Assembly: GCF_029392675.1 (NCBI RefSeq)
Contig: NZ_CP113941.1
Location: forward strand, 1,469,001 to 1,533,000
DNA: 64,000 nt
DNA from: Lactobacillus sp. ESL0684
GTDB lineage: Bacteria; Bacillota; Bacilli; Lactobacillales; Lactobacillaceae
Direction of reading: 5' to 3'
Shown here: piece by piece, positions 55,783 through 62,893 of the stretch
Position numbering within the stretch: the first letter of the stretch is position 1
Layout: each line of letters begins with the position of its first letter
Notes under the pieces: generated by a model
Databases searched by the model: none
What the model was told of the DNA's origin: nothing
Seen by the model: only the letters and a program-made list of their open reading frames with translations
Position numbers and translations under genes: made by a program

Positions 55783-57546
55783 TTATTTGACAAAACCAAC
55801 CTTATACCATAATTGACGACCATTGTTTGTCTCGGACGGCTTCAGCGTATATCCCGAAACCTTATTATTAACCGCATAAACCGTGTATGAACCCGATTCT
55901 GGAATTGCGTAAGCCTCTTCATTCATATATTCTTGCCACTCATGGAACTTGTCAACACGATATTTATGGTCAAAAGCCTTCTTGGAGTCCATTTGCTTAA
56001 GCAGCTGGTTGTTTTTCTTGGTTACAAATCGCGTATAATTCTTCGGTGAATCTTCAGAATATAGACTGCTTGGCGATGGTTCGCTATCTAAATGCCAACC
56101 AATCTGACACATATCAAAGTCATGGCTATCTCCTTCAAGATTATTAACGTATGTATTAAATTCAGTCAGGCGATTGCCAATTAACTTAACATTTAGACCA
56201 ATCTTGTGCCATTGTTGCAGGTAGTTTTGCTGAATAGTACTTTGCGCACTATCATCAGTCACCCGCGCCATATAACGAATTGTTAATGGTTTACCATTAG
56301 GCTGAACCCGCCACTTGCCCTTCTTCTTATAGCCTGCCTTATCTAATAAATCATTGGCCTTCTTTAAGTTATAAGAATAATGCTTGGCATCCTTATTAAA
56401 GTAATCACCATATTCCTTAGGAATCAAAGTCGGTACCCGAAAACTTAAACCATGTGTATAGCGATCGTAAACTTTATCAACATTCATTGCATAGCCAATT
56501 GCCTGTCGCAGTGCTTTATTATTCATCTTAGCATTGGGATCCATGACATTGCGATCCTTTTTAGCATCCCATTTGCCTACCTTAAACCCAATAAAATTGT
56601 AATATAGTGGAATTTGGGCTACAAAGTTTACCCCTTTAGTCTTTTTAACCTGCTCCCATTGCGAATTAATTACCTGAGTAACATCAAAACTCTTGCTCTT
56701 AATTGCCTGTGAGGCTGAATTGGTTGCCAGCACTGAAACCACAATCTTATCTAACTTTGGCTTACCACGCCAATAGTACTTGTTAGGTACCCAAGTAATT
56801 GATTCACCGCGTACCAGTTTCTTCATCTTAAAAGCACCAAAATACATTGGATTCTTTCTAATCTTGTCTGATGATTCCAGCTTAGCAAACGGGACATCTT
56901 TAAGGTAATGATATGGCTCTGCCTTTTCCCAGATATAATTATTACCAGAATATTCCATCCCCGGCTTTAATTCCTTAACATGTAGCACTAACTTGCGGCC
57001 ATTCTCGCCGTCTGGCATTTCGATCCCAGAAATCGTCTTAGCTTGGCCTTCGTGATATGCTTTCATCCCCTCAATATTTTCAAATAGATTAGAATAATTT
57101 TGAGATTTGGTTTGTTTATTTGCCAGAATTTCGTATGGATATTCTAAATCCTTAGCAACAACTTGCTTACCATCTGACCACTTAACACCCTTTTTAACAG
57201 TAATCGTAATCGTGTTATTTTTCTTATCAATCCTTTGGGTAGCTGGACCCTTATCAGTAATCTTATAATTGTCATCGGTATCAAACAGGTTTTCGTTACC
57301 AGGACTAGCAATGTTTTGGTCAATAGCCGTATTGGATAATTCATTAGCAAAAATCCCGGTAAACGGCGTATCCGTTTCTTCAGCGACCTTGAGTGTACCA
57401 CCATGCTTAATGGCTTTTACTGGAGTCTTATCTGGAAACTTTTCTTCGACTTTTTTGCTAGCAGGTTTTCCACAAGCAGCTAAAGTCAGAGCAGCCGAAG
57501 CTAATAAAGTGGTGGACATAATACTTTTTTTGATACTAGATTTCAT
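55783..57546 (-). CDS. Orphan oligopeptide-binding lipoprotein (OppA-like), paralogue 3
   Basis: A 587-residue SBP_bac_5 lipoprotein with lipobox LTLAACGKP near residue 25 and mature start KHGGTLKVAEETDTPFTGIF. It shares GVKWSDGKQVVAKDLEYPYE and RGESITWVPNKYYWRGKPK with the two other orphan paralogues. The frame opens at 57591, but that start lies inside the leader terminator; the ATG at 57546 has GAGGAAG 7 nt upstream. A leucine-rich leader peptide and attenuator-like hairpins precede it. No permease genes are adjacent. Confidence 0.93.
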   Translation of the reverse strand: MKSSIKKSIMSTTLLASAALTLAACGKPASKKVEEKFPDKTPVKAIKHGGTLKVAEETDTPFTGIFANELSNTAIDQNIASPGNENLFDTDDNYKITDKGPATQRIDKKNNTITITVKKGVKWSDGKQVVAKDLEYPYEILANKQTKSQNYSNLFENIEGMKAYHEGQAKTISGIEMPDGENGRKLVLHVKELKPGMEYSGNNYIWEKAEPYHYLKDVPFAKLESSDKIRKNPMYFGAFKMKKLVRGESITWVPNKYYWRGKPKLDKIVVSVLATNSASQAIKSKSFDVTQVINSQWEQVKKTKGVNFVAQIPLYYNFIGFKVGKWDAKKDRNVMDPNAKMNNKALRQAIGYAMNVDKVYDRYTHGLSFRVPTLIPKEYGDYFNKDAKHYSYNLKKANDLLDKAGYKKKGKWRVQPNGKPLTIRYMARVTDDSAQSTIQQNYLQQWHKIGLNVKLIGNRLTEFNTYVNNLEGDSHDFDMCQIGWHLDSEPSPSSLYSEDSPKNYTRFVTKKNNQLLKQMDSKKAFDHKYRVDKFHEWQEYMNEEAYAIPESGSYTVYAVNNKVSGYTLKPSETNNGRQLWYKVGFVK

Positions 57547-57573
57547 TTTTTCTTCCTCAATTCCCAAATTTTC

Positions 57574-57612
57574 AAAATAAAAAAGCCCCATTCAATTTAA
57601 TGAATGAGGCAT
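57574..57612 (-). terminator. Leader terminator (attenuator) before OppA paralogue 3
   Basis: On the minus strand GCCTCATTCA pairs with TGAATGGGGC (one mismatch, loop TTAAAT) and is followed by TTTTTTATTTT. It lies upstream of the ribosome site of the binding-protein gene and behind the leader peptide, as an attenuator would. Confidence 0.85.
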
Positions 57613-57624
57613 AAATCCTTCTTA

Positions 57625-57663
57625 GTTAAGCCCCAATCATTAAAACGCAAACAAGGGCTTAAC
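57625..57663 (-). promoter_or_regulatory. Anti-antiterminator-like hairpin in the leader
   Basis: GTTAAGCCC (57655-57663) and GGGCTTAAC (57625-57633) form a 9-bp stem. The GGGGC in its 3' arm can instead pair with GCCTC of the terminator 5' arm, giving mutually exclusive folds. Confidence 0.7.
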
Positions 57664-57694
57664 TTATAAAATTACTAAAAAGCAATTACTTAAG

Positions 57695-57784
57695 TCAAGT
57701 CCTTCGTTGCAACAACAAGGCTAATAAATCTTGAGCAGTGGTTATTCTAATCTTTATTTGTTTATTAAAATTATTGATTTTCAT
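57695..57784 (-). CDS. Leucine-rich leader peptide upstream of OppA paralogue 3
   Basis: A 29-codon ORF with its own strong ribosome site (GGGAGGA, 7-8 nt before the ATG at 57784). The product begins MKINNFNKQIKIRITTAQ and ends DLLALLLQRRT. Five leucine codons occur in six positions (TTA TTA GCC TTG TTG TTG), followed by Gln-Arg-Arg. The ORF has no recognised domain and is followed by two consecutive hairpins, the second a terminator. This is the layout of a ribosome-mediated attenuator. The function of the peptide itself is not known. Confidence 0.75.
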   Translation of the reverse strand: MKINNFNKQIKIRITTAQDLLALLLQRRT

Positions 57785-57990
57785 TAGAATTATCCTCCCA
57801 AAATTAACTTGTCTTTAATGTTATAAAACTAACTTTAAAATGTCAAGCGGAATTTTAAAAAATATTACTAGAATCAATTGCCACTTAGTATCTCAATTGA
57901 CATCGTACGTTCTAGTTTCTACAATTAACTTAAATCGTTTTCAAAAAATGCTATGCTATATTATCCATGTTGGATAGAAATGGAGTAAAT

Positions 57991-58842
57991 ATGTCAATTC
58001 CTACTATTACTTTACGAGGTGGTATTGAATTACCTGCTGTTGGCTTTGGTACTTATCAATTACGCGCTAAATCTGGCGCTACTGAAATCAAAAACGCTAT
58101 TAATAACGGCTATCGCTTAATCGACACTGCTTATAATTATGAAAATGAGGGCACGGTTGGACAGGCAATTAAGATAGCCAATGTTAGCCGTGACCAGCTA
58201 ATCATCTCGTCCAAATTACCCGGACGCTACCATGAATATCAAGCAGCTCTTGATGCTATTGAAGAATCTCTTTATCGTGCAGATCTAGATTATTTTGATC
58301 TGTACTTAATCCACTGGCCTAATCCAATGAAAGATCACTACGTCGAGGCTTGGCAAGCTTTGCTAGAAGCTAAGAAACGCGGATTAATTCGGGCAGCTGG
58401 CGTATCAAACTTTCTACCAGAACACCTTGATCGACTTGAAGAAGAAACGGGCGAATTACCAGAAGTAAACCAAGTGGAAATTCATCCACTGTTTAGCCAA
58501 GCCAAACAACGACAATACGATCGTGACCACGAAATTGTTACTGAAGCTTGGAGTCCGCTTGGTGGAGCTGGCAAAAAGTTAAGTCAGCCGATTCGTGATC
58601 TACCATTAATTAAGCAATTGGCTCACAAATATCATAAAGATGGTGGGCAAATTATGTTGCGTTGGGAATATCAGCTTGGAGTTATTCCTTTGCCACGTGC
58701 CAAGAGTAGCAACCATCAACAGGCTAACCTTGATCTATTTGACTTCCAATTGACAGCCGCCGAGATGGATGCAATTACTGATTTAGACCAGCCTGATGCT
58801 CGTGTTTCTGGGCAAGATCCTCGTACTCATTTAGAACTATAA
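57991..58842 (+). CDS. Aldo/keto reductase
   Basis: A 283-residue NADPH-dependent oxidoreductase of the aldo/keto reductase family. Tetrad residues are visible: Asp and Tyr in IDTAYNYENE near residue 45, Lys in ISSKLPG near 72 and His in YLIHWPNP near 108. The C-terminal coenzyme segment is IPLPRAKSSNHQQANLD near 235. GGAG precedes the ATG at 57991; the open frame from 57967 lacks a site. Members resemble 2,5-diketo-D-gluconate reductases; the natural substrate is unknown. Confidence 0.93.
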   Translation: MSIPTITLRGGIELPAVGFGTYQLRAKSGATEIKNAINNGYRLIDTAYNYENEGTVGQAIKIANVSRDQLIISSKLPGRYHEYQAALDAIEESLYRADLDYFDLYLIHWPNPMKDHYVEAWQALLEAKKRGLIRAAGVSNFLPEHLDRLEEETGELPEVNQVEIHPLFSQAKQRQYDRDHEIVTEAWSPLGGAGKKLSQPIRDLPLIKQLAHKYHKDGGQIMLRWEYQLGVIPLPRAKSSNHQQANLDLFDFQLTAAEMDAITDLDQPDARVSGQDPRTHLEL

Positions 58843-61058: not shown

Positions 61059-61087
61059 ACAATTAAGTTAGTTGGAGGTATTTGAAG

Positions 61088-62310
61088 ATGAATAATTTAG
61101 TTGTAGTGGGAATTGACGTGAGCAGTCGTAAATCTGCTGTTTGTATCATGCTTAATAAGCAAGTCATTAAACAGTTTAATATCACCAATGATGCCATTGG
61201 TTTTCAGCAGCTACTTGATGAATTAGAATTTTATCACCAACAACCACAGATTGTCTTTGAAGCAACTGGGGTTTATTCTTGCAGATTGCAGGCTTTTCTT
61301 AACCAATATCATTATCGCTACACTATGCTTAACCCACTTAAAGCCAAACAGCAATTAGATCAATTTAGACGCAATAAAACTGATCGCCGCGATGCTAAAG
61401 ATTTAGCTTACTCACAGTTTATTTATCATCGCGGACCAACTTATCTACAAGACCCTAACTATAAGCAGTTAGGTGCCATGAGTCGTTTTTATGAGCAATT
61501 AACTCATGATTTGGTTTCAGCTAAGAACCGGTTACACCGCGTATTACAGTTTACTTTTCCTGAGCTAGAAACCTTAACTAGTCATCCTGACGGTACGAAT
61601 TATTGGCGCTATGTCCAAACTTTTACGCATCCACAAATCGTTAAAAATTTAGGTTACGAAGGAGTTATGCAGTATTTTTAAGCTTCCATGGTATTGGTAA
61701 GCAGCGTGCAAATAAGTTGGCAACTAACTTACTTGAACTGGCTGACACAGCTTATCCAGCAGTTGATAAAGCTGCTTTTGAAGTTGAACAAGCTAGATAT
61801 TATGCTCAACGACTAACCAAACTAACTAAAGAGCGTGAAAATGTCATTCAAAAGATGTCTGACTTAGCTAGTAAATTACCCAACCGTGATCTAAAAATTC
61901 TTGAAAGTATTCCAGGTATTTCACAAATTACCGCAGTTAGATTATTAGGTGAATTAGGCGATATCAGACGTTTTCGTAATCCTAATGCCTTAAATGCCTT
62001 TGTTGGTTTAGACTTACGTCATTACCAGTCGGGCGAAATGGAATTGACTGATCATATTAGTAAACGTGGCAATCCCATTGGTCGTAAGATTCTCTACCGT
62101 ACGATTGGACAAATGGATTCAGTAAGATATTCTGAGCCTTGTCACATTGCCGATTATTACGAAAAGAAAAAACGATCTTCTCAAAGTAGAAACTTCAAGA
62201 AGATCGCCATCGCAGCAGTCCACAAACTAACACGGACTGTCTACTATTTGATTGTGCATGATCAATTATATGATTATAGCGTAGTCAAAAATAAACAGGG
62301 CTTTAACTAA
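61088..62310 (+). pseudogene. IS110-family transposase, frameshifted in the middle
   Basis: Same transposase as copy 1. One T is missing from a T run near 61674-61680 (five T instead of six), so the frame breaks after GVMQYF at residue 198. The remaining part is read in another frame from about 61682 to the natural stop at 62310, and here the C-terminus lost in copy 1 is intact (KIAIAAVHKLTRTVYYLIVH). The DEDD half and the catalytic-serine half are therefore separated. Start ATG at 61088 with GGAGG 9 nt upstream. A sequencing error in the T run is possible. Confidence 0.88.
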
Positions 62311-62625: not shown

Positions 62626-62788
62626 TTAAATTACTATTCTTCCAAAAATAACCTTTTTAACTTATTCATCTTTCGTTATAATAGTTATTACAGAAACAGC
62701 TAAGGCGGTAGCTATTTTCCTTTAAAGGAAGTGGTGCTTATGGTGGTTAAACACCTAACACAAATTCTATTGAAAGGAGGTAGCCATA

Positions 62789-62893
62789 GTGTCTGTTGCA
62801 GACGCTATTCAATTGATGCTTTCTTTTGGCACTTTTATTGTTGCCTTGATCGCATTAATTGTTGAACTGATTAAAAATCAGTCAAAAAAATAA
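62789..62893 (+). CDS. Putative holin-like type I toxin
   Basis: A 34-residue peptide starting at GTG (SVADAIQLMLSFGTFIVALI, then ALIVELIKNQSKK) with one membrane span and a basic tail, the form of the putative holin-like toxins common in lactobacilli and enterococci. AAAGGAGG lies 8 nt upstream. The leader from a TATAAT at about 62677 matches that of the gene at 60653. Downstream is a hairpin and an antisense promoter on the minus strand. The function as a membrane toxin is inferred from the family. Confidence 0.82.
   Translation: MSVADAIQLMLSFGTFIVALIALIVELIKNQSKK

Follow-up and report, generated by a model that had tools for sequence, protein, structure and literature searches.

The oppA-like gene studied here lies in a window of 64,000 nucleotides (the whole stretch of DNA analysed) and is preceded on the minus strand by a leader, 57546-57811, that probably works as a ribosome-mediated transcription attenuator. 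It would sense the supply of leucyl-tRNA through the codons of an LLALLL run, and this copy of oppA would thereby belong to a leucine regulon. We put the probability of this reading, taken as a whole, at roughly 0.8. The sequences themselves show the leader ORF, four competing pairings among five RNA segments, their conservation, and the nature of the downstream genes. The logic of ribosome-mediated attenuation, which an earlier note had proposed for this locus, gains support from the comparison of relatives because the leader ORF, its leucine codons, and the pairings are kept in the genus and the family. Judged by the same comparison, oppA is a minor target: the element chiefly leads genes for the uptake of leucine and other branched-chain amino acids (BCAA; liv) and for leucine synthesis (leuA/leuB), which would be the main targets of the family, with oppA as one further member of the regulon.

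Architecture of the leader

The 29-codon ORF with a strong ribosome site and the five leucines within six positions, both pointed out in the earlier note, are read directly in the sequence (Table 1). The chance of at least five leucines in a given run of six codons is p ~5e-5 at the leucine frequency of the window, or ~1e-3 over 24 positions; the genes of the window use TTA for 41% and TTG for 23% of their leucine codons. The 286-nt leader folds better than 200/200 dinucleotide shuffles (z -3.5), and its five segments, A to E, allow the pairings A:B, B:C, C:D, and D:E. A hairpin of 9 bp had been claimed for B and C; the hairpin exists, and it is longer, with 10 contiguous Watson-Crick pairs between AGTTAAGCCC and GGGCTTAACT. 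The two alternative pairings of the same proposal were recovered as well: the 3' arm of the hairpin pairs with the 5' arm of the terminator at 13/14 positions (C, TTAATGATTGGGGC, with D), and the segment over the leader stop pairs with the 5' arm of the hairpin at 10/11 (A, GGACTTGACTT, with B), G-U being counted in both. An intrinsic terminator right before the oppA-like gene is likewise present (GCCTCATTC...GAATGGGGC followed by TTTTTT, 57610-57579), ~30 bases before the start codon. It was picked up by a terminator scan, which alone is no proof because 4 kb contain 2 terminator-like sites against 2.4 expected. The promoter-like site, of which TTGAC is likewise found in L008/L009, adds little weight since its scan yields 17 sites against 14.2 expected. 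The upstream neighbour gene is divergent (57967..58842, plus strand), so the terminator belongs to the oppA leader and not to that gene. The TTTGCG directly after B would suit a hairpin-assisted pause of the polymerase.

Table 1. Features of the leader locus (positions in the window) and the second copy in the same genome
Feature	Position	Strand	Basis or remark
Promoter-like TTGACA-17-TAACAT, 5' of leader	57818..57846	-	consensus scan, 10/12
Shine-Dalgarno GGGAGG of leader ORF	57794..57799	-	sequence
Leader ORF, 29 codons, MKINNFNKQIKIRITTAQDLLALLLQRRT and stop	57695..57784	-	sequence
Control codons TTA TTA GCC TTG TTG TTG (LLALLL)	57710..57727	-	sequence
Segment A, GGACTTGACTT, spanning leader stop codon	57692..57702	-	pairs with B
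Segment B, AAGTTAAGCCC	57655..57665	-	pairs with A or C
TTTGCG directly 3' of B, candidate polymerase pause site	57646..57651	-	motif; putative pause role
Segment C	57624..57643	-	TTAATGATTGGGGC (57643-57630, D partner) overlaps GGGCTTAACT (57633-57624, B partner)
Segment D, GCCTCATTCATTAA	57597..57610	-	terminator 5' arm, or partner of C in antiterminator
Segment E, GAATGGGGC and T run	57579..57593	-	3' part of intrinsic terminator
oppA-like oligopeptide-binding protein, 587 aa (SBP_bac_5)	55783..57546	-	Pfam PF00496
Second leader copy (L100, L118)	G000:C1:1714402-1714552		five genes in LIV order behind

The product of the oppA-like gene matches the NCBIfam model Opp4A below its cut-off, and its best PDB sequence match is 3drf, an oligopeptide-binding protein OppA that we take to be the one of Lactococcus lactis. 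The L. lactis OppA favours peptides with branched-chain residues. Elsewhere in the window, 62667-62855 (plus strand) matches the Rfam family rli28 (RF01492) above the gathering score and adjoins two ORFs (61082-61681 and 61717-62310) that by eye look like a split transposase.

Distribution and target genes

A second copy of the leader, 81% identical, lies in the same genome before a LIV-type transporter operon. This genome encodes seven OppA copies, the window's included, and has two elements; a DNA search and a covariance model search found no leader at the other oppA paralogs. Models of leuA and leuB have no match in the genome, and the same models detect 14/14 control genomes. Leucine import is probable because both genes are missing from the matches.

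A covariance model (R1) built from 25 copies has 38 matches in 24/75 genomes of the genus, under stricter search filters that may have lost weak matches. Their coordinates place 31 matches immediately before livJ homologues and 6 before oppA homologues; the remaining one (G086:C14, L176) is weak and lacks a leader. Seen from the genes, a model match lies shortly before every livJ homologue at 71-100% identity (31/31, in 22 genomes), and the five at 53-55%, together with one partial hit, have none. Relatives of oppA with at least 75% identity occur in 6/75 genomes and carry the leader in 6/6. All other oppA relatives among the matches listed by score reach at most 69% identity, and none of the 38 model matches precedes relatives in this range. 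In the tree of the element, which was read without support values, the six opp copies are not grouped together. Some genomes have two liv binding-protein loci at a distance of ~5 kb, and a separate leader precedes each of them (L101, at 4871 and 9775; L105; L109). In four genomes (G032, G010, G084, G086), a gene of one shared kind follows ~50 bases after the leader-linked oppA (L236 8404-9585, L237, L111, L114); the one in G032 (L236) encodes an amidohydrolase that resembles an Xaa-Pro dipeptidase model, below the cut-off.

At the level of the family, the model matches 94/397 genomes from 16/40 genera. We read 60 further loci, 58 from the family search and two from the genus search, and found downstream of them 33 liv binding proteins, 17 leuA, 2 leuB, 1 oppA, and 7 with another gene or none. 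Seven of these loci (L176, L217, L220, L231-L234) have neither a leader nor a related gene and are probably false or unrelated matches. In NCBIfam checks, one leuB downstream of a leader scored above the cut-off, and one leuA exceeded one of the 2-isopropylmalate synthase cut-offs and fell short of others. The targets of 98 leaders are a liv binding protein in 75 (71 assigned by motif, four by coordinates), leuA in 15, leuB in 2, and oppA in 6, and the leaders linked to leuA/leuB sit in genera other than Lactobacillus. Lack of conservation in relatives had been set beforehand as one observation that would count against the proposal, and it did not occur; on these comparisons, the element recurs across lactobacilli and stands before leucine-uptake and leucine-making genes.

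An even draw across the order gave matches in 14/295 genomes, nine of them inside the family. Three of the five matches outside it (E 1e-4 to 9e-4) precede one kind of gene, and the last two are at 9e-4. The copy of that gene at L245 is PTS_EIIC_2; its leader ends in SLVIINLLI before the stop, with A, B, and GTTTGCGT similar. These related leaders before a PTS_EIIC_2-type gene (L245, L246, L247, from a different family of the order) hint, at weak E-values, at a BCAA link. An exact pattern scan of contigs returned 33 stretches, mostly from unrelated taxa, two being named Lactobacillus and one Levilactobacillus.

Leader peptide and its codons

Rules that required a ribosome site and a hydrophobic run identify the leader ORF in 98/101 distinct copies, and LLL is found in 91 of the 98. 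A Shine-Dalgarno-like site precedes the ORF in 28/28 distinct copies of the genus (the filter required one). The element is thus predicted to have a translatable leader ORF rich in leucine codons, as attenuators of this type do. When the leader codons are compared across copies, leucine is kept while the codons change: the 91 LLL triplets are TTATTATTA in 43, TTGTTGTTG in 33, CTACTACTA in 4, and mixed in 11. This TTG/TTA variation is of interest in view of the argument of Elf and Ehrenberg (PMC1183508) that sensitivity is set by the choice of codons. The remaining leaders (7/98) lack LLL, some having isoleucine codons instead; in one of them, the oppA leader of G085 (L175, 343-560), LLL was lost to LVIILV, a possible change of signal.

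Past LLL, groups of leaders differ, with RRT and a stop, KDLT and a stop, KDPT, or an immediate stop. In the opp copies L008, L009, L111, and L114, A is read in a different frame, giving KDLT in place of RRT before the stop, and AAGGACTTGAC is retained; within the genus, this frame change leaves the RNA letters of A intact. The strict TTTGCG motif occurs in 17/22 Lactobacillus liv leaders, 13/17 leuA/leuB leaders, 1/6 opp leaders, and 2/53 other liv leaders.

Covariation of the pairings

In the 25 copies of the genus, B:C and D:E are formed in 96.8% of the cells; 0/500 shuffles reach them in cells paired, cells changed on both sides, or covariation score, 5/500 in pairs changed on both sides, and 72/500 in pair types. 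In the same rows, C:D is formed in 91.6%, its five measures being reached by 17, 9, 8, 9, and 1 of 500 shuffles, and A:B in 79.6%, with no measure beyond the shuffles. We also used 97 distinct rows from the family, in an alignment fitted to B:C and D:E that leans towards them; A:B and C:D are outside the model and share its columns. Here B:C is reached by 0, 0, 0, 2, and 0 of 500 shuffles, C:D (formed in 76.2%) by 0, 59, 0, 7, and 0, and A:B by 0, 72, 0, 284, and 0. Both A:B and C:D lie beyond all shuffles on 3/5 measures, an excess that relatedness alone can produce. The copies are related, and their counts are not independent. The shuffles are not beaten in pairs changed on both sides (59/500 for C:D, 72/500 for A:B), nor by A:B in pair types (284/500, 7/500 for C:D). 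Each of A:B, B:C, and C:D exceeds its own slid versions, and A:B is imperfect in the liv leaders of other genera. In relatives, then, B:C covaries well and the other two less securely; we regard B:C as well supported by covariation, C:D as fairly supported, and A:B as only suggestively so. The locus combines an intrinsic terminator before a structural gene with a mutually exclusive antiterminator pairing that has support from conservation.

Ribosome position and folding

A ribosome footprint was placed on each codon in turn and the RNA folded as far as the end of D, this end-point having been chosen after the full-length result. In the window, C:D stays high as long as the ribosome has not passed the last leucine codon and is near 0 once it occupies the last codon and the stop, for five footprint sizes; the leucine codons (57727-57710) lie 5' of A (57702-57692). 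Over the 98 copies, D is paired upstream at a mean of 0.77 with the ribosome on the first codon of the leucine block, against 0.57 at the stop. Between the leucine block and the stop, 0.5 is crossed in the expected direction in 30/98 copies and in the opposite direction in none; with the RNA ending at D, segment D is paired upstream at both positions in 55/98 and at neither in 13/98. From LLL to the stop, the upstream pairing of the terminator arm falls by more than 0.1 in 48/98 copies and rises in 1. When a ribosome on LLL is compared with none, D is tied up more in 22/53 liv leaders of other genera and less in 3, and in the 22 Lactobacillus liv copies both states average 0.94. Without a ribosome and with the RNA ended at D, C:D is at least 0.5 in 22/25 copies of the genus (all but L110 and two opp copies, L111 and L008), and the window's RNA folds as antiterminated.

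These folds suggest an answer to the direction of the response, which the earlier note had left open: a lack of leucine would turn read-through on. Under such a shortage, the ribosome would stall on the leucine codons, 5' of A; A:B would stand and C would be free for D; and C:D would block the D:E terminator, so that transcription continues into oppA. With ample leucine, the ribosome would arrive at the stop codon inside A and cover this segment, B:C and D:E would form, and transcription would stop.

Folding of the leader RNA, proposed earlier as a check, bears this out in part, since folds up to D give a ribosome-dependent switch and folds of the complete leader give no clean switch in most copies. 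At equilibrium, the complete leader has D:E high at every or nearly every ribosome position in most copies (48/53 sequences analysed). With a complete terminator and no ribosome, D:E is at least 0.5 in 14/23 analysed copies of the genus and 0.11 in the window, whose profile along the leader is mixed and follows the expected pattern only roughly. Because these complete-terminator equilibrium folds favour D:E, the attenuation model needs co-transcriptional kinetics; the two sets of folds would agree if the decision were taken kinetically, before E is transcribed.

Relation to known attenuators

The trp attenuator of E. coli is a chain of competing hairpins in which the position of the ribosome picks the terminator or its rival. 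In four-segment attenuators of this type, the control codons lie inside segment 1, and a stalled ribosome breaks 1:2. Competing hairpins and, in our proposal, a decisive ribosome position are shared with the present leader, where A:B may be a pause hairpin. The differences are that there are five segments here, with an extra hairpin that would invert the role of the ribosome, and that A:B would be broken by a ribosome at the stop codon and not on the control codons. These codons lie outside the first segment, and a ribosome placed on them leaves C:D high with all five footprints.

According to the accessible parts of two papers, attenuation by leader peptides of BCAA synthesis has been described in E. 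coli and Salmonella, has reporter and mutant support in S. aureus, and is predicted in L. lactis, Corynebacterium, and Streptococcus (PMC5794164, PMC6123439). The E. coli leu/ilv, S. aureus ilv-leu, and L. lactis/Streptococcus leaders described there have, as here, a short ORF rich in Leu/BCAA codons, a terminator, and an alternative antiterminator, and the authors of the S. aureus ilv-leu work likewise propose that low leucine gives read-through, with reporter support. What sets the present leaders apart, by those descriptions and not by sequence, is that their targets include genes for LIV and peptide uptake and that the first pairing segment comes only after their leucine codons. Naville and Gautheret list 205 ABC-transporter attenuation candidates and histidine leaders of Firmicutes (PMC2965389); these resemble our case in the predicted premature terminators before ABC transporter genes and in the leader peptides, and 'leucine' and 'oligopeptide' do not occur in the accessible main text. 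The earlier note knew of no description of such an attenuator for a peptide-uptake gene in lactobacilli, and a literature search, conducted mostly outside the subscription literature, found none either, nor one for liv, leuA, or oppA in lactobacilli among the matches listed.

Alternative explanations

The same mechanism could respond to BCAA generally (Leu, Ile, Val) and not to leucine alone. LIV-type transporters are among the targets, the leader in the window has four isoleucine codons further upstream, and some leaders read IIIALL (L113, one of L105, L116), LVIILV (L175), or LVAVLII (L120). Against these stand LLL in 91/98 leaders, the leuA/leuB leaders, which serve a leucine-only pathway and end in LLL before the stop, and isoleucine positions that are not conserved, even though the occlusion fold does not separate the two amino acids (in the window, C:D is in the same state with the ribosome on either kind of codon). 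We consider a general BCAA signal unlikely. It is still less probable that the peptide itself acts, through nascent-peptide arrest or as a secreted signal: despite the similar C-terminal ALLLxxRT of many Lactobacillus copies, the residues after LLL vary with the frame while the RNA letters of the genus stay, and the N-terminal part is variable. We find this the hardest of the alternatives to credit.

Two other readings dispense with the leader peptide, and both seem very improbable. One is an RNA regulator of another kind (a T-box, a riboswitch, or a protein-bound antiterminator) beside which the ORF would be incidental. In a T-box, tRNA binds the RNA directly and there is no leader ORF. At our locus, no Rfam family reaches its gathering score, matches at E up to 10 being far below it, and RF00230, which we take to be the accession of the T-box riboswitch, is not among them. 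T-boxes do perform the same physiological job in lactobacilli, where they govern amino-acid transporters according to the accessible text of PMC2494555; against this reading, 98/101 copies have a leader ORF with a ribosome site and exchange synonymous codons at its leucines. The other is that of a plain terminator or of chance hairpins without a regulatory switch. Short pairings abound in AT-rich DNA, the scanned sites are no more numerous than in shuffles, and most copies favour the terminator when folded at full length. Yet the divergent upstream gene leaves no upstream transcript on the minus strand to end, the alternative pairings are conserved, and the model matches extend to 16/40 genera. 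Attenuation by the translated leader, with leucine as the signal, is the reading that we retain.

Implications

Beyond the single locus, it is about an even bet that the following picture is jointly right: an undescribed, family-wide leucine regulon of Lactobacillaceae, in which one homologous leader-peptide RNA has changed places among genes for leucine synthesis, for LIV uptake, and, in a few Lactobacillus genomes, for a dedicated peptide-binding protein; a five-segment layout that inverts the usual logic, since finishing the leader, and not stalling in it, would break the first hairpin; and an untranslated RNA that by default is antiterminated, at least in certain Lactobacillus copies such as the window's. 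If this is true, the ribosome's reading of leucine codons would set peptide uptake in a likely leucine auxotroph, and one RNA would couple the uptake of peptides to that of free BCAA, and in relatives also to the synthesis of leucine. The same picture would predict which of the seven oppA copies is tuned by leucine, and would provide a set of homologous leaders with natural variation in codons, frame, and hairpin strength. Lactobacillaceae would then have a translation-based control by leucine beside their T-boxes.
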